A DNA stretch of 30,794 nt from a virus, in IMG/VR virus record IMGVR_UViG_3300009503_000086, positions 1 to 30,794 of that record. One strand, given 5' to 3'. Of the stretch, positions 6,858-25,197 are shown one piece after another. The notes beneath the pieces were generated by a model that worked only from the letters and a program-made list of their open reading frames with translations, was not told where the DNA came from and did no database searches. Within the stretch, counting starts at the first letter, position 1. Every line of letters begins with the position of its first letter. A program made the translations under genes and the position numbers.

Positions 6858-7247
6858 TTATGGGTTTTTACTTAACACACCATCACCGTCAAAGTCACAG
6901 CTAACAGCTACAACATCCCCCAAAGTTGCATCAATAGTTAAGTTTGGCCAGCAATATCCATAATAATATGCTGTTGAATTATTAGCATCTGGATAAATAT
7001 AGATTCTCTGTTTATTAGCACCTGTAGCTGCTGTAAATAAATCATTAGATGCAGTATCCATATAACCTGCAAAAGATCCAGACCAGCTAATAATTCCCTT
7101 TAACTGTGTTCTCCAGCTATCACCCATTACTGTATCTTCTGCTAAATCTCTATCAATTGAGATATGCCATTCTGTTAGCTCAGTAATTTGGGTAGCTGTA
7201 TTTTCACCCATATAAACTACTCCATTTTTACCGTGTAGTGTCGCCAT
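6858..7247 (-). CDS. major tail tube protein
   Basis: A 129-residue tail tube subunit. Visible features are an N-terminal MATLHGKNGVVYMG, a central LTEWHISIDRDLAEDTVMGD strand pair, the SWSGSFAGYMDT motif (about residues 55-66) that recurs in compact tail tube proteins, and a C-terminal strand ending in CDFDGDGVL. It is short for the family but fits compact versions. The ATG has GGGAGG upstream. Its start lies inside the 3' end of the glycosyltransferase gene (31-base overlap), which suggests that gene was added between the connector genes and the tail genes. It sits just upstream of the chaperone pair, the expected order. Confidence 0.85.
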   Translation of the reverse strand: MATLHGKNGVVYMGENTATQITELTEWHISIDRDLAEDTVMGDSWRTQLKGIISWSGSFAGYMDTASNDLFTAATGANKQRIYIYPDANNSTAYYYGYCWPNLTIDATLGDVVAVSCDFDGDGVLSKNP

Positions 7248-8254
7248 ATTGATTCCTCCCTTTCACTTAAATTTTTTAATAATATATTAACCCTTGCATC
7301 AAAGGTTTGCCTTAAAGCTATCTGCCTAGCTTTTTCAGCTTTAGCAAATCTTTCGCCTTCGTTATCAAGGTAATGCCTAATCTTTTGTTCTAAATCATTT
7401 GAATTTTCAAAGTATTCAATACTATCGCCAAATAAATTTATAACTTCTTGTCTTTTATCGCAAATTTGAAAAGTTCCACACGCAGAAAGCTCGAAAGTTC
7501 TAGGATTAGCTGAATACGCATAAGGGTGCGCTCTGTGTAAATTAAGACCAATTTTAGCACCATTATAAAATTTTACGGAAGCATCATTGGTAATAATTTT
7601 AGACAGTGTATATTTTCTTAATGGACTATTCCTTCTAAGCTTCCAAGTACCTAAAATTTTTAAATTTATCCCATCCCAATTAACTTTCTCTAAAAGTTTA
7701 ACTCTGTCTTCATATCCAGTTCCAATAAAAATTACATCGGATTTAAATTCATCGCTAACTTCGACTTTCTTATGTCTTTCAGGATCACAAGCTTTAGGTA
7801 AATAGCAGGTATTTACATTAACTTTTCTAAATTTCTCTAAACTAGCTACATCATCTACAAAACAAACTCTCAAAAATTTAGCTAAAAATATTTGTTTATC
7901 ATCATCATACGGGCATTCTGTAAATATCCAAGCTGTTTTAAAACCTGCTCTGTTTAAAGCAATTAAAGCGTTAGGATGAAAAAACAATCCAGATATAATC
8001 AAAATCCAATCAGGTTCAAAAACAAATGCTTCATAAACTATATCCGCACTTGCCAATTCAGATATATTCTGCCAGCTATAAGGTTTATCTTTATCCAATA
8101 ACCGTTTTAACGCTTCTTTATGATAAACTGCTCTACTAGCCAAATCATAAACTTTTAAGTTTATGTCAGACCTTCTCTCTAAAGCTTTTTTATATCCTTC
8201 GCCCACATCTCTTGTCGACATAGCTTCTGCAGGTAAAACTAAAAGTATTTTCAT
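7217..8254 (-). CDS. CgeB-like glycosyltransferase
   Basis: A 345-residue GT-B type glycosyltransferase resembling the CgeB / spore maturation protein group. The first half begins with MKILLVLPAE (Rossmann strand) and contains FHPNALIALNRAGFKTAWIF (about 92-111). The second half has FIGTGYEDR (176-184), a KIGLNLHRAHP segment (about 234-244) and the nucleotide-sugar-binding-like NPRTFELSACG (250-260), typical of this group. It starts with ATG overlapping the methyltransferase stop (ATGA) and ends inside the tail tube gene. It probably transfers a sugar to a protein or glycan; the acceptor is unknown. The tight packing with structural genes hints at a virion protein acceptor. Confidence 0.75.
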   Translation of the reverse strand: MKILLVLPAEAMSTRDVGEGYKKALERRSDINLKVYDLASRAVYHKEALKRLLDKDKPYSWQNISELASADIVYEAFVFEPDWILIISGLFFHPNALIALNRAGFKTAWIFTECPYDDDKQIFLAKFLRVCFVDDVASLEKFRKVNVNTCYLPKACDPERHKKVEVSDEFKSDVIFIGTGYEDRVKLLEKVNWDGINLKILGTWKLRRNSPLRKYTLSKIITNDASVKFYNGAKIGLNLHRAHPYAYSANPRTFELSACGTFQICDKRQEVINLFGDSIEYFENSNDLEQKIRHYLDNEGERFAKAEKARQIALRQTFDARVNILLKNLSEREESIWRHYTVKME

Positions 8255-8787
8255 TTATTCTCCTCACCTACAATAATTTTTTTATTTTTGCTAGTTTTAA
8301 CTTGAGGCTTATAAGCTGTAGCCCAAATACCTCCACCCCAAGGTTGATTAGTCGGCCCGTCTAAAATAATTTCAACATCTCTAAAACTAGCAAGTAAATA
8401 ACTTAATCCATCTGGCATAAAACGCCAATAATCTTTGTATTGGTCTGTACCGTGAATTTCCCAACAAGTGTGCGTAGTAACAATAAATAAACCATTAGGT
8501 TTTAAAACTCTAAAAATTTCATCTATCGCTTTTTTAGGTTCGTCTATATGCTCTAATGCTTCCAACAACAGCGCTAACCCCACAGAATTATCTTCTAGTG
8601 GAATATTTTTTACATCTGTTACAACTTCAACATCTCCCCATTGATATAAATCTAACGTATGATAATCTTTGCCTTCAAAAAGTTTTCTTACAGAAGCATC
8701 CCAGCCTGAACAAAATTCCCAAATAGGTTCTTCCCAAGTTAAACTTTCAATTTTTGTTTTTACAAAATCTATAACTTTATCTCTCAT
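8251..8787 (-). CDS. class I SAM-dependent methyltransferase (Methyltransf_11-like)
   Basis: A 178-residue protein with a Rossmann-type methyltransferase core. It shows a motif I region EFCSGWDASV (about residues 24-33, less Gly-rich than usual), an acidic strand LDLYQW (45-50), a motif IV-like LALLLEALEHI (71-81) and RVLKPNGLFIVTTH (93-106), all typical of small-molecule or sugar/protein O- or N-methyltransferases. No DPPY motif is present, so it is not a DNA amino-methyltransferase. It is coupled by ATGA to the following glycosyltransferase, so a joint sugar transfer and methylation pathway is plausible. The TRD-like C-terminus is short and the substrate is unknown. Confidence 0.75.
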   Translation of the reverse strand: MRDKVIDFVKTKIESLTWEEPIWEFCSGWDASVRKLFEGKDYHTLDLYQWGDVEVVTDVKNIPLEDNSVGLALLLEALEHIDEPKKAIDEIFRVLKPNGLFIVTTHTCWEIHGTDQYKDYWRFMPDGLSYLLASFRDVEIILDGPTNQPWGGGIWATAYKPQVKTSKNKKIIVGEENK

Positions 8788-9238: not shown

Positions 9239-9783
9239 CGTCTCTCCTCACTTATATCTGTACTTGATACTAAGCTTGGGTGTCTTAAAGTTTTCCTAGT
9301 AAAACTATAATCAGGATGGTCCGAATCTGCTTCAATGTCTTCTTTATCACTTATACTAATTCCACCGCAAGTTAAATAATCACTTTCTTGCCAGGACTTA
9401 GTTGCACCTAATCTTGCAAAAGCCGGACTTTTAATAAATTCTTCTACTCTATTAAATTCTTGGAAAAATCTTGCATACCTAGTATTTTCACCACCCTCAT
9501 AACCTACACTCGGTTGTGTTAGCTCTATCATAGAAGCTGCATAAAATGCATTAAAGGGCTGTAAAACTCCCAATATATCTGTATTAGTTTGCTCTTTTGC
9601 GTAACCATTAGCAGCCAAAATTGAACCAATTTTATCATAACCGTCAGTTAAAAATGTTTCTACTTGACTTTGGTTAGGATGAGTAGTTGAATCAAAAGTT
9701 CCATTGTTAGTTAAATGTCTACAAAGTGCTTCTACTTCAGCTAAACAACTTCCACTAACTCGTTCATATGCGGTATATGCCAC
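9235..9783 (-). CDS. probable head-tail connector protein
   Basis: A 182-residue protein, largely helical in the first 130 residues: CLAEVEALCRHL, QVETFLTDGYDKIGSILAANGY and FFQEFNRVEEFIKSP. This resembles the helical-bundle adaptor proteins that bind under the portal. The C-terminal 50 residues are polar and acidic with a basic end. The start is GTG with GGAGGTGA 7 bases upstream, and it overlaps the end of the GT4 gene by 43 bases. Gene order (capsid, small proteins, this gene, neck protein, tail tube) supports a connector role; the family call is tentative. Confidence 0.6.
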   Translation of the reverse strand: MAYTAYERVSGSCLAEVEALCRHLTNNGTFDSTTHPNQSQVETFLTDGYDKIGSILAANGYAKEQTNTDILGVLQPFNAFYAASMIELTQPSVGYEGGENTRYARFFQEFNRVEEFIKSPAFARLGATKSWQESDYLTCGGISISDKEDIEADSDHPDYSFTRKTLRHPSLVSSTDISEERR

Positions 9784-10948
9784 TTGGCATCACCTCCATT
9801 GTTTAATTGTAACTGAGCTTCTTCTAAAAAAGGTTTCCAGTAAATATTTACAACTTTATCCCAATTATATTCTTTCGCAAAATTTACAGCTTTATCTGAA
9901 TAAAAAGATTTTTTGTTTTCATAAACTTTTTCCAAAGCTATATAAATTTCATTAACATCAGGTAAAGCCCACCAAGCACCAAAAGGGTGGTAAAAATTAC
10001 TATAACCTACAGTAAACCCTGACCCACACAATTCAGGCATAGAACTAAAATTAGTAACAATAACAGGTACTCCACATGCTTGTGCTTCTATAATAGGTAT
10101 TCCAAAACCTTCACCCATGGAGGGGTTGAGCAAAACATCGAATGCATTATAAATAACTGCCATCTCATCACTGCTAAATCCAATAATTTCATGATATGGA
10201 TTTGGAAATACGGTTATTTCATCAATTTCAAAGAATTTTGCTAACTGGACTAAATCAATCCCGCCATAAGCTTTATCAAATCTACTATGAACATAAAATC
10301 CTACATCATCGTTTTTATGGTTTTTCATAAACTTAGCTACAGCTTCAAAAGCTTGAGGAAATCCTTTCTACAAGGAAAACCTTTATTAGCTGCAACCATA
10401 CCAATAACAAAAGTATTTTCATTAAAACTTAACCACTTTTTGGCTCCTTTACATTCAAAATCGCTATATGGTTTAAAAATGTTAGTTTCAACTCCGTGTG
10501 GAATATAATATGCTGAAATACCAACTTTATTAAGCTCTTTTACCGAAAACTTTGAATATGTAACTGGAATCCAAGCATTTTTAGCTCTTTCGATAACAGT
10601 CGGGTAAGGAGGGGAACTATCTACCGGAAACCATGGCACCCATTTGAACTTTTTACCAAAATCGGATTTAACTACCCAAATGTCCATAAGAGTTATTAGT
10701 ATATCAGCTTTAAAGTGTTGCAAGTGATCTTCTATAATATCGTTACCCCAAAGTTCAAGGCCAAGAGGATAATGAACTATGCCTTGAAATTCTGTTATAC
10801 CACCCATGTGACCATAAAAATCAAAAATTGCAATATCCTCAACAGAATCTAATGTCTTTAATCTAGGTAAAAGACTCGCTCCTTGAACGCCATAGCCTGT
10901 ATGAGAAAATATTGCATTCGACATATACAAAATCCTAAGTTTTTTCAT
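9741..10948 (-). pseudogene. GT4 glycosyltransferase split by a frameshift
   Basis: Two adjacent frames together encode one GT4-type (GT-B fold) enzyme of about 400 residues. The first frame (10948 to 10337) carries the N-terminal half with HTGYGVQG (residues 16-23 from the chosen ATG) and a PHGVETNIFKP hinge segment. The second frame (to 9741) carries the C-terminal donor-binding half with the E-x7-E motif in EGFGIPIIEA. The reading frame is lost at AGAAAGGAT (10370-10362); adding one A would restore a continuous protein through GFPQAFEAVAKFMKN. It may be a real inactivating deletion, a sequencing error, or less likely recoding. The ATG at 10948 is preferred over a TTG 15 bases upstream because GGAAGGA lies just before it. 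Confidence 0.8.
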
Positions 10949-10964
10949 TTTAATCCTTCCCAAC

Positions 10965-11872: not shown

Positions 11873-12838
11873 TTAGTCAGCGGCGTCAGAGAAGAAATAA
11901 CCTGCGTCAGTAGCTAAAACTTTTTGGTCGAAATAGCTTTGCGCTTCAATAACATCGGCCTTTTCTTCTTCTTTACGAATTCTTCTTATAAACTGAGGTC
12001 CTGCACCTACAGCTGGTCTCCAAATAAATGTATAGCCTGCACTTGGTAAAAACAATCCGGGTCTAGGCGCTACATAAATAAGTAATGCATCATCATCAAT
12101 TATAGGTGAGTAAGTAACATTTGCTTCAGCAGTTCCTTCAGGACTTGATGCGTAAATTGCTTCAGCTATATAAATATTTTCTAGTTCAAGTATAGCTTTA
12201 ACTAAGTCACTTGTTACTACTCCCATCTGAGTATATTTTACTCTTTCTACAATATCTGGATGGTCTTGTAAAGCGTTCCAAACTATTTCACCTACAAGTA
12301 ATACATTAGGCCTACGACCAATGCGTTGTAAAATAGTTCTTATTCCATCCCTAATATCGCCTATGGGGTCCGAATTAGCATAATCTGACCATTTGGTAAA
12401 ACTAGAACCTCCAGTTACATCAGTTCCCCAAACACCGGTTTTCATAAAATTCGTAGCAAAAGCAATTTCTCTTTTTCTAGCCATCTGGTCAGTTACCCAC
12501 TCTGTAGCATCTCTATCCATATCAAAAGGCTGATCAGCGTTTAGCCTTACTTCATCAGGAATTATTTTTCCAATTGCATAGTTTACACAAAAATATTTAT
12601 TTGAAGTATCTACAGCATAACCAGCTCTAGCTCCTATCGTGCCGGGTGCTCTTTCTTGCACCTCATTTCTAAACCAATAGCTTTTAGTATATTTTGGGAT
12701 TATATCTGATTGTTTATCAACATAAATAATCGGAAAAATCGAATCTGCAACATAAGAAGAATTCATATAACCCCAGCTTACAGTAGTTAAAAGTTTGTCT
12801 ACATGAACGTCTCCAACATCAGGTAAATTTCCAGCCAT
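11873..12838 (-). CDS. major capsid protein (HK97 fold)
   Basis: A 321-residue major capsid protein. Diagnostic features are an N-terminal arm (LPDVGDVHVDKLLTTVSWGYM), E-loop-like sequence through SYWFRNEVQERAPGTIGARAGY, a spine helix region DRDATEWVTDQMARKREIAFATNF, and a P-domain with RRPNVLLVGEIVWNALQDHPDIVERVKYT and a late PRPGLFLPSAGYTFIWRP segment. The ATG at 12838 is chosen because GGAGGTGA lies 8 bases upstream; an earlier GTG falls inside that site. It is preceded by the decoration and scaffold genes and followed by a strong hairpin, as expected for the most expressed virion gene. Confidence 0.93.
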   Translation of the reverse strand: MAGNLPDVGDVHVDKLLTTVSWGYMNSSYVADSIFPIIYVDKQSDIIPKYTKSYWFRNEVQERAPGTIGARAGYAVDTSNKYFCVNYAIGKIIPDEVRLNADQPFDMDRDATEWVTDQMARKREIAFATNFMKTGVWGTDVTGGSSFTKWSDYANSDPIGDIRDGIRTILQRIGRRPNVLLVGEIVWNALQDHPDIVERVKYTQMGVVTSDLVKAILELENIYIAEAIYASSPEGTAEANVTYSPIIDDDALLIYVAPRPGLFLPSAGYTFIWRPAVGAGPQFIRRIRKEEEKADVIEAQSYFDQKVLATDAGYFFSDAAD

Positions 12839-12863
12839 TTTAAAAATCACCTCCCCTTTCTTT

Positions 12864-13250
12864 TTAAGCAGCTCTACCTTGCGGTTGAATTAACATTTCA
12901 ATTATATCACCTGCCGCACTTGCATCTTCCAGAGCAATTCCAATTACATATTTAGTTGTGTCTGTTCCAGAAGTTGCAGTTACAGCCTGGCCGCTAGCAT
13001 TAGTTGTGAGAAGGGCACCTTGTGTTACTGCAGCCCCAGCTACAACTTTACTAGTTCCTGCCACTCTCACTTTTGCGGGTCTATTAGCAGCAGCAGGTTT
13101 GTTTTGTAAAATACCTAAAATTACATCTGTTACAGCATCGCAAATGCCAACAGTTCTATCATTAGTAAGCTCTACTAAATAATACTGATAAGATGATAAA
13201 TCGGTTGATGCTTTTAGAGTTATATCAATTCCAGCTTGTTCTGTAGCCAT
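12864..13250 (-). CDS. DUF2190-like capsid decoration / stabilisation protein
   Basis: A 128-residue beta-rich protein of the DUF2190-like kind: DITLKASTDLSSYQYYLVELTNDRTVGICDA at the start, then a strand with ILGILQNKPAAANRPAKVRVAGTSKVVAGAAV (about 44-75), and a C-terminal IGIALEDASAAGDIIEMLI. Such proteins are trimeric and sit on or brace the capsid. The ATG has AGGAGGTGA upstream and it lies immediately before the major capsid gene, the typical place. Unlike longer relatives it has no extra domain. Confidence 0.8.
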   Translation of the reverse strand: MATEQAGIDITLKASTDLSSYQYYLVELTNDRTVGICDAVTDVILGILQNKPAAANRPAKVRVAGTSKVVAGAAVTQGALLTTNASGQAVTATSGTDTTKYVIGIALEDASAAGDIIEMLIQPQGRAA

Positions 13251-13264
13251 TTAAAAATCACCTC

Positions 13265-14077
13265 CTAATTTCTACCTCTCATTTCAGATAAGTACTGCTT
13301 ATATAATTCTGGATATTCTCTTGCAACTTCTTGTATAGCTTTAGCCATATCTTTTACTTCAGATTTTTCAACTTTAGATTTAGCAAGAGTTTCTATTTTT
13401 TCAACAGCACCTTGTAAGGTTCCTCCAGGATAACCAATTTCACCGAAAATTCTGCTTTGCTTCAATAAATTAGAATAAGCTTTCTCTCTTTCAACTGCTT
13501 TAGCAAAATCTTCAGGTGACAAACTAGATTTTAAAACCTTTAACCATTTTACATTTTCTTCAACAGAACCATTCATACTTTTTGCAATCTCAGAAAGCTC
13601 TCTCATTTCCTCTTTTTCTTTTAAAGTATTAATTTCCTCTTGTGCTTTAGCTAGTTCCTTTCTATAATCATCACGTTGTTTTTGAATTTCATCCAACAAT
13701 CCTTCAATATCTTTTTTAGCGGGTTTTTTATATCCGTAACCTTCTTCATCTGAGTTCTTCTTGCCTTCTTTAGGTGCAGGATAACCATAACCCACTACAT
13801 TAGCTAAAGCATTTAAAGCTGACTTTACATTATCTGGTAAGTCATCTTTATACTTATCTAAGATTTTTAAAGCTCCTTTGATTGCATTTTGGACATCTTC
13901 AGATACTCCCGCCTTTTCAACCTTTACGTCTTTATTATCTTCATCAATTTTTTCGCCATCAACATCTATATCTCCGGCAGTTCCACTTTCATTTTTAATC
14001 ATCAAATATTTTCGTTTATTAGCAGGAGAATCTACTAAACTAACTTCGAAAATATCAAGATCTTCCAATTTAGCCAT
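13265..14077 (-). CDS. probable scaffolding protein with protease-derived N-terminal strand
   Basis: A 270-residue acidic, helical protein. Residues about 110-175 and 220-265 are coiled-coil-like (KDIEGLLDEIQKQRDDYRKELAKAQEEI), fitting a capsid scaffold removed during maturation. The first 28 residues contain DLDIFEVSLVDSPANKRKYLM, which matches the last strand of XkdF/U35 prohead proteases (EVSLVD-PAN). That strand is missing from the end of the 1249-aa protease, so the ancestral protease-scaffold fusion seems to have been split between two genes. Gly/Tyr-rich linkers with GYGYPAPKEG and GYGYKKP sit at about 96-118. The ATG has GGAGGTGA upstream. No catalytic residues are present here. Confidence 0.75.
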   Translation of the reverse strand: MAKLEDLDIFEVSLVDSPANKRKYLMIKNESGTAGDIDVDGEKIDEDNKDVKVEKAGVSEDVQNAIKGALKILDKYKDDLPDNVKSALNALANVVGYGYPAPKEGKKNSDEEGYGYKKPAKKDIEGLLDEIQKQRDDYRKELAKAQEEINTLKEKEEMRELSEIAKSMNGSVEENVKWLKVLKSSLSPEDFAKAVEREKAYSNLLKQSRIFGEIGYPGGTLQGAVEKIETLAKSKVEKSEVKDMAKAIQEVAREYPELYKQYLSEMRGRN

Positions 14078-14211: not shown

Positions 14212-14439
14212 TTATTCTTTAATAGGTATTATATTATAATCGTGTACTAAATACAAGCCTTTATCTATCTTTTCTAAATCTGAAACGTTAATTACGTTTA
14301 TATGTTTTTCACCAAAATGTTTAGACTTAATAATCAAAAAACCGCCTCTGTATTCAGCAATGGGCACACCACAATGCTCACAGCGTATAAAAAAACTATG
14401 TCCTGTTTTCTCAGGCTGGTGGTTCTTCATTCTCGACAC
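14212..14439 (-). CDS. Com-like zinc-binding small protein
   Basis: A 75-residue protein with an N-terminal CxxC in FFIRCEHCGVPI (about residues 16-27) and a His pair in KHFGEKH (about 40-46), giving a CCHH-like metal site similar to Mu Com-type translational regulators or phage zinc ribbons. The start is GTG with GAGGGGAGG 6 bases upstream, so it overlaps the end of the 1249-aa gene by 29 bases. It lies between the protease and the scaffold. A regulator binding nearby mRNA, such as the spacer just downstream, would fit the Com analogy but is inference. Confidence 0.6.
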   Translation of the reverse strand: MSRMKNHQPEKTGHSFFIRCEHCGVPIAEYRGGFLIIKSKHFGEKHINVINVSDLEKIDKGLYLVHDYNIIPIKE

Positions 14440-17400
14440 AGAATGCCTCCCCTCTCACTGAATAACCTGTAAGTTTACCTGATTTAACTAGTTGCCAAAC
14501 ACTGTCATTACCGCAGTATGTGACCATAATCCAACTACCTTTCTTTACCTTTTGCTTATTGCCCTTAAATTCAAATTCTAAGTCTTGCGGTGCAATATAA
14601 TTTTCTACAGGTCTTACATCGGGTAGTGGTTTTGTATGTTGTAAGTAAATTCTCTGCGCTTTTATCATAAACTTATGACAAGCTTTTTCTATTTCTTCAG
14701 CAGTCTGCCAATCACCTTGACTATCTACAGCGTCAGGTTCCATAACTATACCGTAAATTAACCTCTTTTCTTCGTCTACTTTAGCTATAGGAATGAATTT
14801 CCCCATAGTAGATTTAGCTTTTTCTTGCAAGTCATAAAGTTTAGGCTTTTCACCCGGCTTAGACCAGATAAGATATCTTTGTCCCTTAGCTTTTAATTCT
14901 TTCAATACATCCTCAGGTTTATTCTTTTCCGCGTACGGAACCTGGTCATCAGGCTTGTCTATTAGCCACTTTCTACTGCCACCTACCGGTGCATACATAA
15001 TTATAAATCTACCCTTAAGTTTATCTCCTTGTAAAAACAATTCAAACGAATGTTCTCTCCAAACACCTATTTCATAAGTACCATGATCTATTTCAAAAAA
15101 CTTAGCAAATGTTTGACTCGTTGAACCAACTTCCTTAGGCCCTGCTACATAAGGTTTATTTCTGGCAATATTAAGCCATTCAGCAGGTTCCTTTTGCTTC
15201 CATCCGCCTTGTAAATTATCTGGTGACTTTAACGTAACTAGTAAGTCTCCGCCTGCTTCTTTATTTTCTTTAGCAGTTCTTAAAAATACTGTGAACCCAA
15301 ATAACCAACCAGGTTCATAACTAAATCTCAAATCACCATGGACTGAGTGGTCTGTTTCTAATAGTTTGGCTTCATCCCAACCTGCTTCTTCTTCACTTAA
15401 ACCTCTCCAGTGATGCTGGTATGTGAAATAACCTTTTCCTGATTTAGGATAGCATGTAAACCAATTCTCATTCCAAAAAGTTTCAGAAATTTCAGATCTT
15501 GTCTCAATATCTTCTGCTTTTTGTATAACTTTTAAAAAGTGTTTACGTCTAGCCATATCTATTACCTGTTCTACTGTATAAGCAGGTCTACTTCTATCAA
15601 CCCCTTGTGGATAAGGTTTACCCCAGCTAATAGTCCCATCAGGGTTTAAAATAATTTCTTCTACTTTAACATTTAAAGTGTCCCCTACTTCAGCTAACTT
15701 TTCTTTAGTGACAAAAGTCTTACCCAAAACTAAATCTTTATCGTTTTGCCTTAATGCACATTCATAAACCCAACCATTTTCAGTTTTATCTATATTTACA
15801 ACCTTAACTTTTATTTCCAACCACAATTTAAATTTTGCATAATCATCAGTAGCGCCAAATGTATAAGGCATATCCCAAATTCGCGCTACTACTCCTTCAA
15901 TAGCTAAATCTGAGTTAGTCCAAGGTTCATACTCCAAAGCTTTTTTACAAGAATCTAAAAAAACTTCTTTATCAGTAACCTTAATCTGAGGTAATACAAT
16001 AAGATGTTCTAAATTACTAAACTTATCTTTCAAAATTGCTAATCTTTCATAAAATGGTTGCTTATGCAAATCCTCATCCCCAAAATAAAGCAGATCATAC
16101 AAAAATACATAAGGCACTCCATTTATGTTGTCGGCCAATACGGAAACAATTTGAGGCCTAGCTAAAAATTTACCTTTATCATCATTAGCCATACACAATT
16201 CACCTTCAATAATAAAATCAGGTAAATCTTTTAACTCACTACACAAAACTGGTAATTTGTCGGCCTTTTCCTCTTTAGAATCCTCAAAATAAATACTTAT
16301 TTTCTCACCAGATTTTTGAAGAATACATCGCAATCCATCAACTTTAGGTGATATGTAAAAAGGCCCCTTCTTTTTGCTAGCCCAAGCATTCCACAATTCA
16401 TCCGCACTAAAAGTATCTGTGTAACCTGCCATATAAGGTTTTGTAGGAATATATCGCTGTATAGGTTTTAAACCTTCTTTAGGTGTAATCTTGAATTTAG
16501 CGCCATCGGTAGCTACCTGGACTGCAACTCTGTCTTTACTTAACTCTTTAATTTTCTCTAAAACTTTATCATCATCGATAGTTACTGCCCATTTACCAAA
16601 GTGTGTAAAAATAGCATTAGGTATATCTTCAGGTATTAACCAGTCTAATTGTGTTTTAATACTAGCATGCCCAAAAGGTTTATTATTTTTATATCTTACT
16701 AGGTCTTTGTCTGAGCTAGCTCCGTCACCAATATAAATTTTAGTTTTGTCCAAGTTATCAGGCTTTTCTAATACATCTGGAAAGACTGCAATTTTAAAGT
16801 CTTTATAAATTACATAGTAACCATTAGCAGGAGCGGTAAGAGAATGTGTAACAGGTTGCAGTAACACTTCAAACGGCCCAAAAGTTTTTTTACCTTCAAA
16901 AACATTTACATTTATGTTTTTCTTAGTTAGTATTTCTGCTGTAACTTTACTACACCAAATATTACTCGTGTATTCATTTAAATTATCCTGGTAGTGATCC
17001 GGGTGCGCATGAGTTATAAGTACACAATCTGCATTAGGCCATTTATTGCCCGGACCAAAATCAACAAGTAACTTATAACCTTCAGCCTCAAAAAGTATTG
17101 AAGATTGATTTTTATGGGTTTGTGAATATTCCTCTATTTCGCCCCTTGTGCCTAAAAATGTTATATTTAAATCAAAGGCTTGCTTTACAACTTTTATAGT
17201 CCTATCAGTTACAGTTCTGGCAACTAAATCCCAAAGAGGTAAATAATCAGCGTGAGGCCCTGTAGGTTCATATATAAAATGAAGATCTTTAGATTTATCA
17301 GGATCCAGTTGCTTACGAATAGCAACTTCAAGGCTCTCATTTCTGTTTTCTTGTTTTATTAGGATATCCATATCGTTTGCAGTTTCAGGACTAGATACAC

Positions 17401-18160
17401 TAGACCCTACGAGTGTAATGAACTCAGGAATAATTACAAAATCATTATTTGCAAAATTAAGCAATTTATCTACGTGGACATCACTGGATTCTAAGTCTTG
17501 TTTAGCTATCGGTATTTCAATATTTTGCGCTTTAAGATTTCTAAATACTTTTTGTGTTAAATCATTTGCTTCTGGAGTCATAGTATTGAGATGAAATTCT
17601 ATAGCTTTACGATTTATCAATTCCTTGATAATTTGAGTAGCTAACTTTTCCATAGCTGCATAAGATAGTTTTACATCTTTACCTTGTTTCTTATTCGCCC
17701 ACCATGCACAAACAATTCTCCAGTCATCTCTTAACTGGTCATCCCGCATATCTTTAGGATTATAACTCTCGACATCTTGTATTTTAGCAATATATTCTGG
17801 AATGTTAGTGACTTCAGGCATTTCTAAATTTCTTTGTATAGCTGTAGATTCTAGTGTTTTAAAAGCATTGAAGAAATCCTCAGCATTCAAACCTTGCAAA
17901 CCTTCCTGTTGGTATAACTTATACAATTCATCTAATCTTACAAGCCAATCTAAAACTTCATTATCATCCATATTTTCAACTAATGAAGGCATACTTAGTA
18001 TAATCTTACGTTCATTCTTATCAGGCGGTTCGACAGGTTTAGGATAAGCTTTGCCTCCAGCATGTCCTCTAGCAGATTCATGCAATTCTTGAAACAAATA
18101 TGGAGGAACCCAAGGCTTTATTTTTTCAATTAGATTTTCTAAATATTCTTTTGTTCTCAT
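14411..18160 (-). CDS. NTase-MBL-ATP-dependent DNA ligase-LigD PE-XkdF prohead protease fusion
   Basis: A 1249-residue polyprotein-like gene product. Domains in order: helical N-terminus 1-220; nucleotidyltransferase-like 225-330 with GSSV (252-255) and DMD (263-265); metallo-beta-lactamase fold 333-525 with HAHPDH (384-389), H439, D479 and H520; ATP-dependent DNA ligase 575-860 with KVDGLR (adenylated Lys606), IEGEL (651-655), IEGVVAR (754-760), KFK (776-778) and an OB fold; a LigD phosphoesterase-like domain about 895-1080 with HGDLRF (941-946); and an XkdF/U35 protease 1118-1247 with H1175 and S1234 in GYSVRGE. Its start overlaps the gp10-like stop by ATGA. The protease end lies directly upstream of the scaffold block, as in ordinary phages. 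Ligase, MBL and protease motifs look intact; the PE active site is divergent. Probably packaged or cleaved during head assembly. Confidence 0.85.
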   Translation of the reverse strand: MRTKEYLENLIEKIKPWVPPYLFQELHESARGHAGGKAYPKPVEPPDKNERKIILSMPSLVENMDDNEVLDWLVRLDELYKLYQQEGLQGLNAEDFFNAFKTLESTAIQRNLEMPEVTNIPEYIAKIQDVESYNPKDMRDDQLRDDWRIVCAWWANKKQGKDVKLSYAAMEKLATQIIKELINRKAIEFHLNTMTPEANDLTQKVFRNLKAQNIEIPIAKQDLESSDVHVDKLLNFANNDFVIIPEFITLVGSSVSSPETANDMDILIKQENRNESLEVAIRKQLDPDKSKDLHFIYEPTGPHADYLPLWDLVARTVTDRTIKVVKQAFDLNITFLGTRGEIEEYSQTHKNQSSILFEAEGYKLLVDFGPGNKWPNADCVLITHAHPDHYQDNLNEYTSNIWCSKVTAEILTKKNINVNVFEGKKTFGPFEVLLQPVTHSLTAPANGYYVIYKDFKIAVFPDVLEKPDNLDKTKIYIGDGASSDKDLVRYKNNKPFGHASIKTQLDWLIPEDIPNAIFTHFGKWAVTIDDDKVLEKIKELSKDRVAVQVATDGAKFKITPKEGLKPIQRYIPTKPYMAGYTDTFSADELWNAWASKKKGPFYISPKVDGLRCILQKSGEKISIYFEDSKEEKADKLPVLCSELKDLPDFIIEGELCMANDDKGKFLARPQIVSVLADNINGVPYVFLYDLLYFGDEDLHKQPFYERLAILKDKFSNLEHLIVLPQIKVTDKEVFLDSCKKALEYEPWTNSDLAIEGVVARIWDMPYTFGATDDYAKFKLWLEIKVKVVNIDKTENGWVYECALRQNDKDLVLGKTFVTKEKLAEVGDTLNVKVEEIILNPDGTISWGKPYPQGVDRSRPAYTVEQVIDMARRKHFLKVIQKAEDIETRSEISETFWNENWFTCYPKSGKGYFTYQHHWRGLSEEEAGWDEAKLLETDHSVHGDLRFSYEPGWLFGFTVFLRTAKENKEAGGDLLVTLKSPDNLQGGWKQKEPAEWLNIARNKPYVAGPKEVGSTSQTFAKFFEIDHGTYEIGVWREHSFELFLQGDKLKGRFIIMYAPVGGSRKWLIDKPDDQVPYAEKNKPEDVLKELKAKGQRYLIWSKPGEKPKLYDLQEKAKSTMGKFIPIAKVDEEKRLIYGIVMEPDAVDSQGDWQTAEEIEKACHKFMIKAQRIYLQHTKPLPDVRPVENYIAPQDLEFEFKGNKQKVKKGSWIMVTYCGNDSVWQLVKSGKLTGYSVRGEAFCVENEEPPA

Positions 18161-18609
18161 CTTACCAAACCCTCTATTCCTTGTTTTACATATTTAGAAA
18201 ATAGTTTAGGTGCGTCGCTTTTTAATGTATCAAAAGTTTTCTGCATATAATGTTTAGGTACTTGACCTCTTACAGATTTACCATAAACTATACCTGACCT
18301 TTTATCTGCTAAAACCTTTTTTCTTACAGGTTTTATTTCCCTCCCCTCAGGTCCATAAATTCCAGTTCCAAATTCTGGATATGGTGCATATTGGATTGCG
18401 GTTCCAATTTTACCTTTTAAAGGTTCTATAAATTTATGTGTTATACTACTTCTTAAGTGTCCTGTTCTAACAGGTGCATTTTGTTTAGCTACAAGCTCAC
18501 CATAGTTCAATACTGCATCCAGCGCCCTTTCAGTTACTGAAAGATAATGGCTAAAGTCCAGTTTGTTTAAAACTTTCTCTAAATTTTTTATATCTACACT
18601 TATTTGCAT
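18157..18609 (-). CDS. HK97 gp10-like tail completion / neck protein
   Basis: A 150-residue protein matching the HK97 gp10-like family. Markers are the N-terminal ISVDIKNLEKVLNKL helix, the strongly conserved VRTGHLRSSITHKF (about residues 47-60) and YAPYPEFGTG (about 74-83), and a C-terminal helix after PKHYMQKTFDTL. In the family this protein acts at the head-tail joint or tail end. Its location before the prohead protease is earlier than usual, where it normally follows the connector genes, so the head module is somewhat rearranged. It overlaps the next gene by ATGA. The ATG has AAGAAGG upstream. Confidence 0.85.
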   Translation of the reverse strand: MQISVDIKNLEKVLNKLDFSHYLSVTERALDAVLNYGELVAKQNAPVRTGHLRSSITHKFIEPLKGKIGTAIQYAPYPEFGTGIYGPEGREIKPVRKKVLADKRSGIVYGKSVRGQVPKHYMQKTFDTLKSDAPKLFSKYVKQGIEGLVR

Positions 18610-18909: not shown

Positions 18910-21798
18910 TTAATAAATTTTCCCTCCTGTCTGTATTAACATTTGCCTACGACCTTTTATAATACTAATCTTTTCACTTACCTCCTCTTTTGAAAGACCT
19001 GTTAATTTACCAACAGCCTTTACTAATTCTTCAATTTTTTCATCAGTTATTTCATTTTGCAATTTATTAATAATATCCAGTCTTGCACTTTCAGCAATTT
19101 CAGGTTTCAATTTAGAAAGTTTCTCTGCCTCATCATACATACCTTGAGCATTACCAAATGTAGTATCTATAACCCATTCTAACTGTTTTTTTGGATCTTT
19201 TAACTCATAAAATTCACGATCTTCTGCAGCAACATAATATAAACTTAAACTATTATCAATTAATCCAACATAATAATTCTCTGATTGTTTATTAGTTCCT
19301 ATCATCCAGTTGCCGCCGTGTCTGTCATGATTATTAATTAAAAAGTCAAAATAAGGCATTTTGAAAAATTCATTAGCGTTATCCACTTTCGACCAGTCAA
19401 CTTCATCAACTTTATAATAACATTTAAACTCGTACTTAGGCATTTTACTATTCCAGTCAATCATAGTAATAGCTTCCCTATTTGCCCTCAATTCCACATC
19501 GCCTGCCAATTCTGGAGGAACTTTTTTTACAAATCGGACATCAGGCATATTTATACCTAAAGCTTTACCCAATCGTTCCGCAATTATTTCATTAGCTAAT
19601 TCATCATGACTTGAAGTTTTTATATACCATCTTTCATTAGTTCTTTTATCCCTTAAAATCCAGGACTGGTTAGCCCCTCGATTCTTATTACCTTCGACAA
19701 ACTCAAGATTGCCTAGAAACTTCTTATCAGCTTCCATCGGCCTTGATAACAAAGATTCTAAAGGCTCAGTCAATGAAGGCTGTTTACTGGGAGCAGTATC
19801 TCCAAGCCAAGGCCCAATAGAACAACGACATCCCGGGTGTGCAGGAGGGCCGTCAACATCTTCACCGACACCTCCAAAGGCTTCATCTAAACCTATAATT
19901 TTGTTATTTAGCTCTCTACAATGCGGACAAGCTCCTGCTTGTCCATCTAACCAAACTTTCTTTTCAACAATACCTGACTCTTTATACACTTGTAAACTTC
20001 CTTGAGTATATGCGCGGATTGTTTCTGTTTGCGCTATTTGTTTAGCTTTCCAACTTGTTATATCAGTTACTAATTCTTCCACCCTATCTTTGAGTTCGGG
20101 TAATCCTTCGCCAAATTTTAAACCTGTACTTAAGCTTTCTCTTAAACTATCTCTTACCGTATCAAAAACGCTACTAGCTACTTCTAAACTTCTTGCCCTC
20201 ATCCACCTTATAGCATTTTCATTTTGTAATGACCAATCTATAGTTAAACCTGCAAAAGCAGGAAAGTTTTTAGCAGATTCACCACCTAGACCAAGACAAA
20301 GCGATATTGGCTCCTGAATAGTTTTAGCAAATTCAGTAACCCACTGATCCCACTCTTCAGGAACATCAGCTTTTTCAACTTTTCTATATACGTCCATATA
20401 ATTTTCAGCTAACCACCCACTAAATTTTTTCATAAATTTTACTATTGCTTCTTCAAAGTCATTTTCTAGTTTAATAAGCTTTTCTTGGTTCGGCCTGTAA
20501 TTGGGATGCCAATCTTCCGCTTTTACTACTTCTCTACTTAATAGATTTTTTTTTTGCAATCTATTTTCTAAAGCTTCAGGTAATCTCGCTACCAGCCTTA
20601 AATAGTCCTGTAAATTATCATCTGGAGTTATCAACCCTAGTTCTATAGCTGGTTGTAAGAATTTCATCAAACTTTCAAGATCTACAGGTAAAGCACCACT
20701 ATGAATAACTTTAGGCCAAACCTCAGGTTTAAATCCATTAAGTTTCATAAGTCTTTCTACAGCAAACTTATTAAACGTTTCTGCAATATTGTCAGCCCAA
20801 CCATTTAAACTATCTAAAAAGAAGTCTTTTAAGCTTCTTCCTAACGCGTAACTACCCACTCTCTCTGCACCTAAAACTAAAAACTGCGCTAAAACTGACA
20901 ACAACATCTCATATCTATATCTTGTTATGCTTTCTCTAAAATCAGTTAAATCACTTGTTGGGCTTTTAAATTCAAAATCCCAACCATAAGGTAAAGTCAA
21001 GCCCATTTGCTCATCAACTCTAATTTTACGAACAATATCCTTAGCTTTTTCAAGATCTTCATCAGTTGCAGTTTCAGGCAATTTCATTACAGGAAAACCA
21101 GCACCTCTTCTTTCAAGAACAATACCTTCCATTTGCTCTAAGTTTGTCTTAAAATAATAAGCTCTATAAGCAGTTCTTAAAACACTAACACCAAATGGAT
21201 TATTTGCTTCTTTACTTGTTCTAAACAGTAAACTTTTCCAAATGGGTATCTCTCTAATTTTAAAATCAGGAGGTGCCATTTGAACCATTGCTTTTATTCC
21301 ACCCTCATCATCAAATATCCAATCATGCCAACTAAGCTGACTTCTAAAAGCAAACTTACGCCAACCAATCTTACCATCACTGAATTTGCTGGTTAAACCT
21401 TCATCTTCATTCTCACCTTTGCGTAGCTTATAAACAATTTCAAACCACGCCCAACCAAAAGGTAAAAACGTTACAACTTCGCTTAGGAAATCGTTCCAGG
21501 TATGAGACATGTCATCTAAACAGCTTTCCAAAAAGTCTGCGGCATCTAGAGCTTCTTTACTTGAGTTTGCAGGTTTAACTTTCCAACGCATCCTTCTTAA
21601 ATTCATCTCAATAGCAAACAAAAAACTACCCACAGTTGGATCGTTACGCCTCATTTCTTCGTAAGTCCTTATTCCTCTTAAACCTTGCAGTTCAGTTAAA
21701 AATTCTTCTTTTATTTGTCCGCCCCATCGGTTTAACCCTGATGTACCAATTTCAGCAGTTAACTTTTCAGTATCTTGTTGTTGTTTTTTTATTGCCAT
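18910..21798 (-). CDS. portal protein fused to MuF and a HipA/PI-kinase-like domain
   Basis: A 962-residue triple fusion. Residues about 1-420 are a Mu gp29 (DUF935)-like portal: RNDPTVGSFLFAIEMNLRRM, LLFRTSKEANNPFGVSVLR, FLVLGAERVGSYALGRS. Residues about 520-665 are a MuF-type minor head domain with QTETIRAYTQGS, CPHC (624-627) and HPGCRC (654-659). Residues about 690-870 resemble HipA or PI4K-type kinases: a YIKTSS lysine (727), then an NNHDRHGGNW catalytic loop (822-831) and LIDNSLSL (847-854) for metal binding. A helical tail of 90 residues follows. Portal and MuF are usually separate genes; here one chain joins them and adds an effector-like enzyme. It overlaps the large terminase stop by 10 bases. 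Whether the kinase is cleaved off or works in the host is unknown. Confidence 0.87.
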   Translation of the reverse strand: MAIKKQQQDTEKLTAEIGTSGLNRWGGQIKEEFLTELQGLRGIRTYEEMRRNDPTVGSFLFAIEMNLRRMRWKVKPANSSKEALDAADFLESCLDDMSHTWNDFLSEVVTFLPFGWAWFEIVYKLRKGENEDEGLTSKFSDGKIGWRKFAFRSQLSWHDWIFDDEGGIKAMVQMAPPDFKIREIPIWKSLLFRTSKEANNPFGVSVLRTAYRAYYFKTNLEQMEGIVLERRGAGFPVMKLPETATDEDLEKAKDIVRKIRVDEQMGLTLPYGWDFEFKSPTSDLTDFRESITRYRYEMLLSVLAQFLVLGAERVGSYALGRSLKDFFLDSLNGWADNIAETFNKFAVERLMKLNGFKPEVWPKVIHSGALPVDLESLMKFLQPAIELGLITPDDNLQDYLRLVARLPEALENRLQKKNLLSREVVKAEDWHPNYRPNQEKLIKLENDFEEAIVKFMKKFSGWLAENYMDVYRKVEKADVPEEWDQWVTEFAKTIQEPISLCLGLGGESAKNFPAFAGLTIDWSLQNENAIRWMRARSLEVASSVFDTVRDSLRESLSTGLKFGEGLPELKDRVEELVTDITSWKAKQIAQTETIRAYTQGSLQVYKESGIVEKKVWLDGQAGACPHCRELNNKIIGLDEAFGGVGEDVDGPPAHPGCRCSIGPWLGDTAPSKQPSLTEPLESLLSRPMEADKKFLGNLEFVEGNKNRGANQSWILRDKRTNERWYIKTSSHDELANEIIAERLGKALGINMPDVRFVKKVPPELAGDVELRANREAITMIDWNSKMPKYEFKCYYKVDEVDWSKVDNANEFFKMPYFDFLINNHDRHGGNWMIGTNKQSENYYVGLIDNSLSLYYVAAEDREFYELKDPKKQLEWVIDTTFGNAQGMYDEAEKLSKLKPEIAESARLDIINKLQNEITDEKIEELVKAVGKLTGLSKEEVSEKISIIKGRRQMLIQTGGKIY

Positions 21799-23441
21799 CT
21801 AAAACTCTTCCTCCATGGACTTATAGATATACTTTTTTCTAATTCTTCTGTAACTAACGCTGCACTAAGCCTATTATTTTCCCATTTACTTTTTTGATAC
21901 AAGTCAACCACATCAAATGATTTACCTTGTCTAAGATTTGCTACAACACTGGCGTAGCAATCTGCATGCCAAAAGTGATCTGGCCCTATAGAAGTCCACC
22001 ATATCTTTCTTACTCCGTATCTATCTTCTCTTTCATCTTTTCTAATATTCGACAGATGATCAACAAAAGTTTTAAAACTACCTACTCCAGCAAGTAACAC
22101 CCTTCCTTTTACATAACTTTCATAATTTGCAAGCATTACTTCACTCCTATCTAAAAGCAACGCATCGTGATAACCTGCTTTACGAGATTCACTAATCTTA
22201 ATTGGTGTCTCCTGTTCTTTATAATAGGCCATCTTCACTCTACCAGGATATTTTTTAACTAAATTTCTAACATTATGCTTATTCGGCAAAGCATCAATAA
22301 GACACAGCGTTACACGCCAAGCCTCTAACAAATTCTCGATTCTATCAAAACTTTCGCACCGCTCTGTCCACACAACAATTCTCCTACCGTCTTTTACTGC
22401 TGTAATTACAACATATAATTCATCACCCTGGTCTACTCCCATAAATACATTATCTACATCTCCTACACTATCTTCATCAATAACAAGTTTAAGTAAGAAC
22501 GGAGTTGATAAAACTACATCTCCTATACTATATGCTAAGCCCAAATTAAAATTGTAAAAGTTTTTCGTATAAGTTATATTCTTTTCAGTTTCCGATAAAT
22601 CTTTGAAACTTATCCAAGGTGCAATTGTTTGTGGTATATAATATCCATGTACTTCTCGGTCTGGATACTTGGCAACCCATGTTCCATTATTCCTATCTAA
22701 AACTTTACCACATTTAGGACAAAGCCAATCATCCATACCTTTTTCCTTCCATATAAAATAATCTAATTCAATATCATTCTTACCACAATGTGTGCAAGTG
22801 ATAAGCCAGGTATGCATGCTACTTTCGCTGTACAACTTATCAATGCCATAACCAGGTATTGTAGGAGTACCAATATTCCAAATCCCCTTGTAGTCACTAG
22901 CATCAAGTCTTCTCTTATACACTTCTCTTACATCAGGTTTGCTAAAGTCAAGTTCGTCGTGGATATTTAAATCAGATGGAATTTCTAGAGCTTGCTTTTC
23001 TGACCAAGTACCTCTAAAATACCATCGGCCTGTAGAAAATTTTTTAAACTGGGCATTATTCAATTGAAGCTCATCAGATAGGCCTGAATGAGAAAGAATA
23101 CTATCAAGTCTGCTAGTGCTAAAAAGCATTGCATCTTCACGGCTCGGAAAAGTATAAATAACGTTATACCCTCTTGTTTTTATAAGATATAAAGCCTTTA
23201 GAGCAGAAAGGGTTGTAACACCAACTTGAGTTGCTTTTTTATAAACTTGATAGGGTGATAAGTCCTGATATAAGGCTTTCAAGTAATTTCTATTTTCTAA
23301 CATTACAGGGCTTGCATCTTCTGTTTTAGTTTTAGCAATGAAACTAAGAATGTCACAATTCTGTTGGTCTAGTTTTACCACAAGATCGGATAATATTTTT
23401 TGTTTAATTGTTTGATACAAAACCTGCACCAATTTCTTCAC
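21789..23441 (-). CDS. terminase large subunit (GpA-like)
   Basis: A 550-residue packaging motor/nuclease. The ATPase half has a Walker A-like KKATQVGVTT (68-77), a TFPSRED segment (97-103) and Walker B HDELDF (161-166). A zinc-finger-like insertion has CTHC (216-219) and CPKC (241-244), a feature of GpA-type terminases. The nuclease half begins with FMGVDQGDELYVV (about 333-345), whose Asp residues are likely metal ligands, and ends near GPDHFWHADCYAS. It translocates DNA into the prohead and cuts it. The listed GTG start lies directly next to its GAGGGG, so an in-frame TTG at 23432 or GTG at 23429 fits the ribosome binding site better. It overlaps the small subunit by 38 bases. Confidence 0.9.
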   Translation of the reverse strand: MKKLVQVLYQTIKQKILSDLVVKLDQQNCDILSFIAKTKTEDASPVMLENRNYLKALYQDLSPYQVYKKATQVGVTTLSALKALYLIKTRGYNVIYTFPSREDAMLFSTSRLDSILSHSGLSDELQLNNAQFKKFSTGRWYFRGTWSEKQALEIPSDLNIHDELDFSKPDVREVYKRRLDASDYKGIWNIGTPTIPGYGIDKLYSESSMHTWLITCTHCGKNDIELDYFIWKEKGMDDWLCPKCGKVLDRNNGTWVAKYPDREVHGYYIPQTIAPWISFKDLSETEKNITYTKNFYNFNLGLAYSIGDVVLSTPFLLKLVIDEDSVGDVDNVFMGVDQGDELYVVITAVKDGRRIVVWTERCESFDRIENLLEAWRVTLCLIDALPNKHNVRNLVKKYPGRVKMAYYKEQETPIKISESRKAGYHDALLLDRSEVMLANYESYVKGRVLLAGVGSFKTFVDHLSNIRKDEREDRYGVRKIWWTSIGPDHFWHADCYASVVANLRQGKSFDVVDLYQKSKWENNRLSAALVTEELEKSISISPWRKSFRWQ

Positions 23442-23922
23442 CCCTCGCTAACTTTTTTATATCCGAGATAACCTGGGTTAACGTTTGTTGGTCTTTTATG
23501 TGAATTTGTAGAATATGTACGATATTATTAACAACATCACTTACAACTCTTGTTTCAACACGAGAAGTAGCTTTTCCTGCAAGTAACATCTGTAACTTAT
23601 ATACCTCGAGACTAAGTTCTAATAAACGTTCATAGTTTCTTGGTTGCATAACTTGCAAATATTTATGAATTTCAGTAAGACAAGTGTTTAAGTTTTCAAA
23701 GAAAGCAACTTCCAGCGGGTCTAAGCCATCTGGTATTGGTACTGTAAGTGTTTTTGGAATAATGTTAACTTCTTGAGTGTTTTTCCATTTTTCTTCTCTT
23801 GACCAGGCAGAGACAATTTGGGGACTAATACAAAGTTCGTCTGCAATCTCTTTTATAGTCCTACCTTTAAGATATAGATTTTTAGCAATTTGCCTTAATT
23901 GCGTATGCTGTTGTATGCTCAT
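23404..23922 (-). CDS. terminase small subunit
   Basis: A 172-residue DNA-recognition subunit. Residues about 10-48 form a helix-turn-helix: LYLKGRTIKEIADELCISPQIVSAWSREEKW, with the WSREEKW end typical of phage TerS proteins. The middle and end are helical and may form the oligomeric ring. It is the first gene of the late block, downstream of a strong promoter. The ATG has a modest AAGG 4 bases upstream. It overlaps the start of the large subunit, so the pair is coupled. Confidence 0.85.
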   Translation of the reverse strand: MSIQQHTQLRQIAKNLYLKGRTIKEIADELCISPQIVSAWSREEKWKNTQEVNIIPKTLTVPIPDGLDPLEVAFFENLNTCLTEIHKYLQVMQPRNYERLLELSLEVYKLQMLLAGKATSRVETRVVSDVVNNIVHILQIHIKDQQTLTQVISDIKKLARGEEIGAGFVSNN

Positions 23923-24185: not shown

Positions 24186-24407
24186 ATCTCTTATACTTCT
24201 CTTTTTATGGCAATAATTCTTCTCTTATGTCTTCACTATCGTGTCACCGATGTTTCTATTATTTTGTCTATAATGATTCTATTAATGAGTTTAATAATAT
24301 GTCTATTATGTCTCTATTATTATGTCTCTTATACATCCATTAAACAACTGCCCATTATATCTACAGCAGGTCTCTTATGTTTTTCTATAACAGGCCTATA
24401 ACAGGCC
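24186..24407. repeat. degenerate 11-12-bp TTCT(A/C)TTAT repeats, cluster 1
   Basis: A pyrimidine-rich stretch with about ten imperfect copies of an element like TTCTCTTATGTC or TCTATTATGTC, ending in a perfect 11-bp tandem duplication TATAACAGGCC at 24386-24407. The element matches that of the better-ordered clusters near 24730 and 25200. Confidence 0.55.
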
Positions 24408-24478
24408 AAGGATTACTTTTAAATAATAACCAGTTATGCTAAAGAGGGCCGACTTTACTACTTACTGTTTTGTGTTTT

Positions 24479-24600
24479 GTAGGCCCCTTAGAGAAAAGAA
24501 AAAGAAAAGTAGGCCCCTTTAGAAAAAGAAAGAAAGAAAAGAAAGTAGGCCCCTTTGAAAGAAAACATTTGAGAAAAGAAAAAGTAGGCCCATTAGAGGA
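24479..24600. repeat. four GTAGGCCC repeats in a purine-rich tract
   Basis: GTAGGCCC begins at 24479, 24509, 24545 and 24584, each followed by C/A-TT and A/G-rich sequence. The spacings of 30, 36 and 39 bases are all multiples of three. On the plus strand they translate as VGP(L/F) units separated by Lys/Arg-rich segments, but no start with a ribosome binding site is present. Confidence 0.7.
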
Positions 24601-24729
24601 AACCCATAATAAAAGAGAACAGGAAACCAGATTTAAAACCGGTAACCGGACTTAAAACAGGAAACCGAACCTGTTAATGGTAAAGTACTAAGTCAGCCAT
24701 GTTTAACAAATGTTACAAACTGAAAAAGT

Positions 24730-24784
24730 AAATCTTATACTTCTATTAAACTTCTATTATACTTTTATTATACAAGTATTATAA
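24730..24784. repeat. 11-bp iterons, cluster 2 (five units)
   Basis: Five consecutive units of exactly 11 bp: AAATCTTATAC, TTCTATTAAAC, TTCTATTATAC, TTTTATTATAC, AAGTATTATAA. The helical-turn period places the same bases on one face of the DNA, as in plasmid iterons and partition centromeres. Confidence 0.75.
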
Positions 24785-24828
24785 TGAAAGAAAGAATAGA
24801 GATAAGTGTATAAACATGTTTAGATTTT

Positions 24829-24871
24829 TATAAACAAAAATATTGACTGGTTTGTACAAATTTACAAATTT
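24829..24871. repeat. AT-rich long repeat, copy A
   Basis: TATAAACAAAAATATTGAC, five bases, then TTGTACAAATTT-ACAAATTT. It shares its body with two tandem copies at 25028-25130. The core TTTGTACAAA is a perfect palindrome here. Confidence 0.7.
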
Positions 24872-24904
24872 AAAATTTGTAATTTGTAAATTCGTATATT
24901 CTAC

Positions 24905-24994
24905 CAAGGATAATTTTTATATTATAAAAGGATTAATACATACGTGTGTTTAAAAAGATGTTTTTATACAAATATAATATAAAAATTATCCTTG
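24905..24994. repeat. perfect 22-bp inverted repeat with 46-base spacer
   Basis: The left arm (24905-24926, beginning CAAGGATAATTTTTATA) and right arm (24973-24994, ending AAAAATTATCCTTG) are exact reverse complements over 22 bp. The 12-mer GGATAATTTTTA in the arms also occurs at about 24077. It could extrude as a cruciform, act as an origin or recombination site, or be a tiny mobile remnant; no target duplication is evident. Confidence 0.8.
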
Positions 24995-25027
24995 ATAGAA
25001 AAAACAAAATTAAATTTTACAATATTT

Positions 25028-25130
25028 AAAAAGTTATAAACAAAAATATTAACCGGTGTGTACAAATTTTACAAAATTTAAAAAGTTATAAACAAAAATA
25101 TTGACGAACTTGTACAAATTTTACAAATTT
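25028..25130. repeat. two tandem 52-bp AT-rich repeats, copies B and C
   Basis: Copies at 25028-25079 and 25080-25130 share AAAAAGTTATAAACAAAAATATT(A/G)AC and TGTACAAATTTTACAAA. The variable part is six to seven bases in the centre. Each contains TTATAAACA, one mismatch from the DnaA-box consensus TTATNCACA, and a TTGTACAA or TGTACAA core. Confidence 0.75.
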
Positions 25131-25197
25131 AACAAAACTTACACCTAAACTCAAACTGCTCCACAATTACCACACAAAAGTTACCTCTGTTACTAAA

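Follow-up and report, generated by a model that had tools for sequence, protein, structure and literature searches.

A prohead-protease gene of an uncultivated virus carries a predicted multi-enzyme DNA-repair chain

In LigD of bacteria and archaea, a domain of the phosphoesterase (PE) superfamily and an ATP-dependent DNA ligase share one chain. The LigD PE strips 3'-phosphate or 3'-ribonucleotide blocks. This type of PE acts in DNA end joining, and that of P. aeruginosa carries a Mn triad of H42, H48 and D50, plus R52 (PMC8656161). A second point of reference is the polyvalent proteins (Iyer et al. 2017, PMC5512222), which provide a general example of multi-enzyme products of late genes being delivered together with DNA: they combine several unrelated enzyme domains per chain, Pol-beta nucleotidyltransferases (NTases) included, are encoded among virion genes and often carry a peptidase. 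A third is the XkdF prohead proteases, whose genes lie between those for the portal and the scaffold or capsid. Here we analyse a 30,794-base stretch of viral DNA (IMG/VR virus record IMGVR_UViG_3300009503_000086; the whole stretch is called the window below) and one gene on it whose 1249-aa product resembles all three. By analogy, and with a probability of roughly 50%, we read it as the gene for a tailed virus's prohead protease, extended N-terminally into a multi-enzyme DNA-repair chain that would be late-expressed, head-associated and probably packaged and delivered.

Judged from its sequence, the gene fits the known theme of polyvalent proteins, and its exact domain combination appears to be undescribed. 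The commonest peptidase of polyvalent proteins is a zincin-like metallopeptidase, whereas here it is a serine prohead protease, and the cargo also differs: DNA ligase, LigD-type PE and metallo-beta-lactamase (MBL), with uracil-DNA glycosylase (UDG) in relatives. In the main text of PMC5512222, ligases are discussed only as RNA ligases, and XkdF and MBL go unmentioned. With LigD the protein shares the PE and the ATP-dependent DNA ligase in one chain, as well as equivalents of the H-H-D triad and of R52. Unlike LigD, it has an NTase-like domain in place of the polymerase and is fused to a head protease; the archaeo-eukaryotic primase-type polymerase domain of LigD had no Pfam match in the 1249-aa protein. 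A literature search, outside which most subscription journals lay, returned no paper describing the ligase/PE/MBL/XkdF combination, and an initial annotation of this DNA had likewise known of none.

Among the records examined, one precedent for an enzyme fused to XkdF was verified, gp18 of Arthrobacter phage Laroye, in which an enzyme domain stands N-terminal to XkdF in the head-gene region, as here; it differs in that the enzyme is a 2H / 2'-5' RNA ligase-like domain and the total length is 373 aa. This gp18 (L031:2269-3387) is annotated 'aldolase class I'. The label 'DNA methyltransferase' is also common for XkdF proteases in GenBank and PHROGs, as seen for L034, L030 and L033 (PaP1, RHph_Y1_11 and Lactococcus phage 98201). 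Unlike the fusion protein, the XkdF proteins of these three isolate phages are small, just 156-349 aa. The label therefore resembles a misannotation that has spread between records, and we rejected these protease-sized proteins as fusion precedents.

The gene is an uninterrupted open reading frame (ORF) with an ATG start at 14411-18160 of the window, on the minus strand, as are all the genes named below from the terminase subunits to the major capsid protein. Its ATG overlaps by 4 bp the 3' end of the upstream gene for an HK97-gp10-like or neck protein (18157-18609). From the N terminus, the protein consists of a short motif and a helical domain, an NTase-like domain, the MBL, the ATP-dependent DNA ligase, the LigD-type PE and the XkdF protease. 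XkdF, DNA ligase and MBL match Pfam above its curated cut-offs, and PHROGs concur. The initial annotation had reported the single 1249-residue frame, though not its strand, and had claimed that it joins a DNA-ligase/LigD-PE set to a prohead protease. Domain profiles agree, and the profile searches and structure prediction proposed there support the identities of the ligase, PE, XkdF and MBL domains. We regard this domain content, as predicted from profiles and models, as nearly certain, the NTase less so.

Could the frame be an assembly join of separate genes, a concern that the initial annotation had raised itself? An independent contig, IMGVR 3300005573_000388, codes for an identical 1249-aa protein, its DNA being 99.97% identical to the window (5 mismatches over 14.6 kb), and nine separately assembled architectures end in a C-terminal protease. 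The identical protein and the same fusion in distant relatives therefore rule out an assembly join. Base composition is fairly uniform along the gene and resembles that of the window, and relatives that are about 25-60% identical keep the catalytic motifs in each alignment column.

The C-terminal domain (aa 1123-1239; 14444-14794) is a clear member of the XkdF family by its profile match (Pfam Peptidase_S78_2, PF14550, aa 1125-1239, E 7e-31). Its predicted catalytic His and Ser, H1175 and S1234, are exactly the residues named in the initial annotation. At the opposite end, a motif conserved in the family (aa 14-45, WVPPYLFQELHESARGHAGGKAYPKP...; 18026-18121; profile i-E 1e-15) is confined to family proteins among all ORFs scanned and occurs in two copies in L015 and L016; our guess is that it targets the protein to the prohead. 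It is followed by a conserved alpha-helical domain (aa 48-124; 17789-18019; i-E 6e-24) that has no significant PDB match, and by a weak second copy of this domain at aa 125-186 (i-E 0.007).

The ligase (aa 564-870; 15551-16471) comprises an adenylation domain and an OB-fold region, with K606 as the predicted nucleophile (Pfam DNA_ligase_A_M, aa 597-778, E 7e-14). A family ligase profile had 44 matches in the PDB at E <= 0.01, DNA ligases without exception (best E 6e-26), and the closest are archaeal and LigI-type enzymes. By these profile matches the ligase is of DNA type, and an RNA ligase identity is disfavoured. Every member whose sequence spans this position keeps the equivalent of K606, with the exception of L026, whose ligase is degenerate. 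The initial annotation had listed all main ligase motifs, and nearly all of them stand; motif IV (EGVVAR) has R at a position where K prevails among relatives, and motif VI is placed tentatively at aa 846-858 (WGKPYPQGVDRSR).

The PE domain (aa 890-1090; 14891-15493) gives only sub-threshold matches to Pfam LigD_N in family members. A 12-sequence profile, on the other hand, matched the solved LigD PE domains first (3p43, 3n9b, 2lj6 and 5dmp, E about 5e-4). The AlphaFold2 model (pLDDT 87.6, pTM 0.85) agrees: all 7 of its 7 PDB matches with E <= 0.001 in Foldseek are LigD PE domains (probability 1.00, E 1e-6 to 4e-4), and the first match beyond this set lies at E 0.05. H917, H941, D943 and R945 correspond, by our reading of the alignment, to the LigD Mn triad and R52, and are invariant in 11 sequences. 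The PE assignment, which the initial annotation had made from an HxDLR motif, is thus firm on both profile and modelled fold.

Between the helical domain and the ligase lie two further predicted enzymes. The first (aa 228-330; 17171-17479) carries G252-S253-S254, D263xD265 and D311, and this motif (G[SG], DxD and a third Asp) is near-invariant across 16 sequences. Pfam matches of family members to NTP_transf_2, Polbeta and MTPAP-like stay below threshold (best E 0.0055); a fold search was not significant, with the MNT structures 1no5, 8xeo and 5yep among its matches; and the structure model is poor (pLDDT 62), too low to fix the fold. Because the model is poor and the fold search not significant, we call the domain a probable nucleotidyltransferase of Pol-beta type. 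The NTase-like motif of the initial annotation is thus conserved in relatives, while its fold is unsupported and its Pfam matches are below cut-off.

The second, the MBL (aa 331-566; 16463-17170; Pfam Lactamase_B_3, aa 351-396, E 7e-6), is an insertion relative to the nearest relative, L014, and separates the NTase from the ligase. The full metal motif described earlier is indeed there: H384, H386, D388, H389, H439, D462 and H520 are all conserved in five sequences. The proposed kinship with SNM1/Artemis nucleases did not hold. These share the MBL fold with its HxHxDH motif, but only 58 residues separate D462 from H520 in this 236-aa domain, which leaves no room for the beta-CASP insert that follows their MBL core, and we rejected an SNM1/Artemis-type enzyme. 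The closest solved folds are instead tRNase Z, 1zkp and Apyc1-like hydrolases, with tRNase Z as the best match and the Apyc1 structures 7t28 (E 2e-4) and 7u2r (E 6e-3) among the others.

These matches bear on two alternatives. The Apyc1 structures favour a counter-defence polyvalent protein, in which an Apyc1-like MBL would cut a cyclic-nucleotide signal, the NTase would modify a host target, and ligase and PE would mend cuts by host nucleases. Polyvalent proteins, whose domains include Pol-beta NTases, are considered to take part in such conflicts (PMC5512222), and the window's portal gene also bears a HipA-like kinase. However, Apyc1 is outscored by tRNase Z and 1zkp. The family varies least in its ligase/PE/NTase core and has UDG among the modules swapped in, two features that point to DNA repair, and we consider counter-defence unlikely. 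A set for RNA repair or processing, with a tRNase Z-like MBL and an RNA-sealing ligase, would accord with tRNase Z as top match, with a weaker second match to PF09414 RNA_ligase in L009/L017-type relatives, and with the 2H/2'-5' RNA ligase-like domain joined to XkdF in the Arthrobacter phage. It is made very improbable by the exclusively DNA-type PDB matches of the ligase, by the service of LigD-type PE in DNA end joining (PMC8656161) and by UDG, whose substrate is DNA.

Scanning viral contigs with a profile yielded 18 loci, whose genes were read fully or partly. The fusion gene is part of a hitherto undescribed polyvalent-protein family, spread over about 14 virus lineages, whose recurrent core is NTase-ligase-PE. 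Nine architectures on separate contigs (the window, L013, L015, L016, L019, L020, L022, L025 and L026) have a C-terminal XkdF, so fusion is the rule in that branch of the family; in L014, L023 and L024 the sequence stops before the position of the C-terminal protease. L003 has XkdF as a separate gene adjoining the core gene, and the link between core and protease therefore holds even when they are unfused. L027-29 have an XkdF-like gene upstream, encoded on the other strand. The PE of L018 is a separate neighbour gene, followed by a 774-aa ORF (L018:8487-10808) that ends in a Phage_capsid_4 capsid protein; the N-terminal part of this ORF is a candidate second prohead protease.

Beyond the core, modules differ from member to member. 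The MBL lies between NTase and ligase in the window, before the NTase in L017/18, and before the ligase in L027-29, where no NTase was found. On the ligase tree, whose inner-branch support is modest, this distribution requires three changes; L014, the window's nearest relative at 58% identity over 190 columns, is without an MBL. A UDG module is clear by Pfam in L015 and L025, weak in L026 and recognised by resemblance only in L016, and its addition fits a role in DNA repair. A methyltransferase module stands between NTase and ligase in L020, L022 and L025 and at the N terminus in L003. In L017/L018:4180-5214, the roughly 340 aa that precede the MBL have neither a Pfam nor a significant PDB match, and a TGT/DpdA-like N terminus for these two loci was dropped for lack of Pfam or PDB support, as was an ASCH-like one in L019/L027. 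A T4-endonuclease-V-like N terminus in L020 (Pyr_excise, E 0.012) gained no support from a PDB profile search.

Gain and loss of modules, together with the degenerate ligase of L026 (L026:4640-7702), whose K-DG nucleophile motif is gone although its UDG-like, PE and protease domains are kept, might suggest that the domains are bulk passengers, non-catalytic and serving as scaffold filler or decaying. Against this, metal ligands and nucleophiles are kept across the family, and for two close groups of relatives every domain compared yielded dN/dS values of 0.013-0.10, which indicates purifying selection on the enzymes in those two groups. We regard this as the least probable of the alternatives considered.

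Among 50,697 phage records, the only relative of the core was in ANMV-1, which has an uncultured archaeal host. Its 'ATP-dependent DNA ligase' (AJP62006) shares the NTase-ligase-PE core in one protein but is 866 aa long, has neither an MBL nor a C-terminal XkdF, and carries methionine in place of the PE arginine; the gene is not mentioned in the ANMV-1 paper. Two contig scans of bacterial and archaeal genomes, which used exact short patterns and were not exhaustive, found no member of the family.

In the window, genes for the small (23404-23922) and large (21789-23441) terminase subunits, a 962-aa fusion of portal (Portal_Mu), MuF and HipA-like kinase (18910-21798), two small genes, the fusion gene, a 75-aa ORF, a scaffold-position protein (13265-14077, with an N-terminal match to a head-maturation-protease family), a cement or decoration protein (12864-13250) and the major capsid protein (11873-12850) follow one another, so that the XkdF domain gene occupies the slot between portal and scaffold/capsid. 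Members with readable flanks are mostly located between portal/MuF and scaffold/capsid genes as well. Portal_Mu genes are found just upstream in L013, L015, L016, L022 and L026, and L019 has there a portal gene of a different family (PF04860), accompanied by MuF; the ANMV-1 core gene directly follows the portal gene. A head-cassette slot kept in divergent viruses is as expected for head-associated cargo. The portal-MuF-HipA-like protein at 18910-21798 is itself a second head protein of polyvalent type, neighbouring the fusion gene, and the portal gene of L016 (L016:2562-5078) has a LAGLIDADG-like insert (sub-threshold Pfam match), perhaps an intein.

The gene adjoins portal and MuF both in the window and in the majority of relatives whose flanks are readable, as packaging-coupled repair would also predict. 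In that reading, the enzymes would act at the portal in the producing cell, seal nicks and clean ends of the concatemer while it is packaged, and afterwards be removed or inactive. Ligation, 3'-end cleaning and removal of uracil would presumably aid the packaging of intact DNA. Yet such repair by itself leaves unexplained the fusion to a head protease, which is active inside the prohead, and has no obvious need for the methyltransferase and MBL modules; we hold it improbable.

A head-associated repair chain is, in our view, the best explanation of the fixed head-gene slot, the fusion to a head protease and the conserved DNA-repair chemistry taken together. The protein very probably acts on DNA and is likely to be head-associated at some stage; packaging and delivery with the genome, suggested by the architecture and by the polyvalent-protein analogy, we judge to be evenly balanced. 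We infer every step after translation, that is, packaging, self-cleavage, delivery and activity. The protein would be synthesised late and enter the prohead via its protease end, perhaps aided by the N-terminal motif. During maturation, the protease would cleave itself and its neighbours, releasing the enzyme part inside the head. This part would then exit with the genome and work on DNA: MBL and PE may trim or clean ends, nucleotide addition or modification of a target may fall to the NTase, and nicks or breaks that stem from lesions, packaging or host nucleases would be sealed by the ligase.

Several observations weigh against such a head-associated repair chain. The core occurs without a C-terminal XkdF in L017/18, L027-29 and ANMV-1, and the protease could be joined merely for co-expression. 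Since the L026 ligase lacks K-DG, ligation is not always required. With tRNase Z and the anti-Pycsar enzyme Apyc1 among its nearest solved folds, the MBL may have a substrate other than DNA ends. The LigD phosphate-pocket residues H84 and Y88 are without a clear counterpart in the PE, where the conserved H1037 may substitute. The selection figures come from relatives and not from the window's own lineage. Finally, Ku was not found in the window or in the records of 14 relatives, most of which are fragments; the suggestion in the initial annotation that the protein circularises DNA ends thus has no specific support.

Other features of the window lie outside the gene. A glycosyltransferase at 9741-10963 is spread over two ORFs (10337-10963 and 9741-10328) that occupy different frames, probably through a frameshift or sequencing indel, and a further glycosyltransferase with a SAM methyltransferase lies amid head and tail genes (7217-8787). 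Upstream of the terminase genes, 24298-25132 holds several short tandem repeats and few ORFs, and 27291-28653 holds a pair of adjoining N6/N4 DNA methyltransferases whose ends overlap.

The relatives in the same slot of distant viruses suggest that such a virus may equip itself with DNA-repair enzymes that it brings along to the next cell. More tentatively, and with somewhat less confidence than for the window itself, we propose that many uncultivated viruses carry an end- and base-excision-repair kit on the N terminus of the head protease, its parts in various members being a glycosylase, an end-cleaning phosphoesterase, a nucleotidyltransferase and a ligase, which would be freed in the capsid, carried by the virion and able to repair the genome at entry, ahead of all viral gene expression. 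If this is true, tailed viruses of prokaryotes would possess a DNA repair system carried in the virion, and joining enzymes to the head protease would be a general route for loading them into capsids, with the protease doubling as the tag for loading and the switch for release. The slot with its exchangeable modules would then serve as a survey tool, the enzymes found there being candidates for the activities needed in the first minutes after DNA entry.

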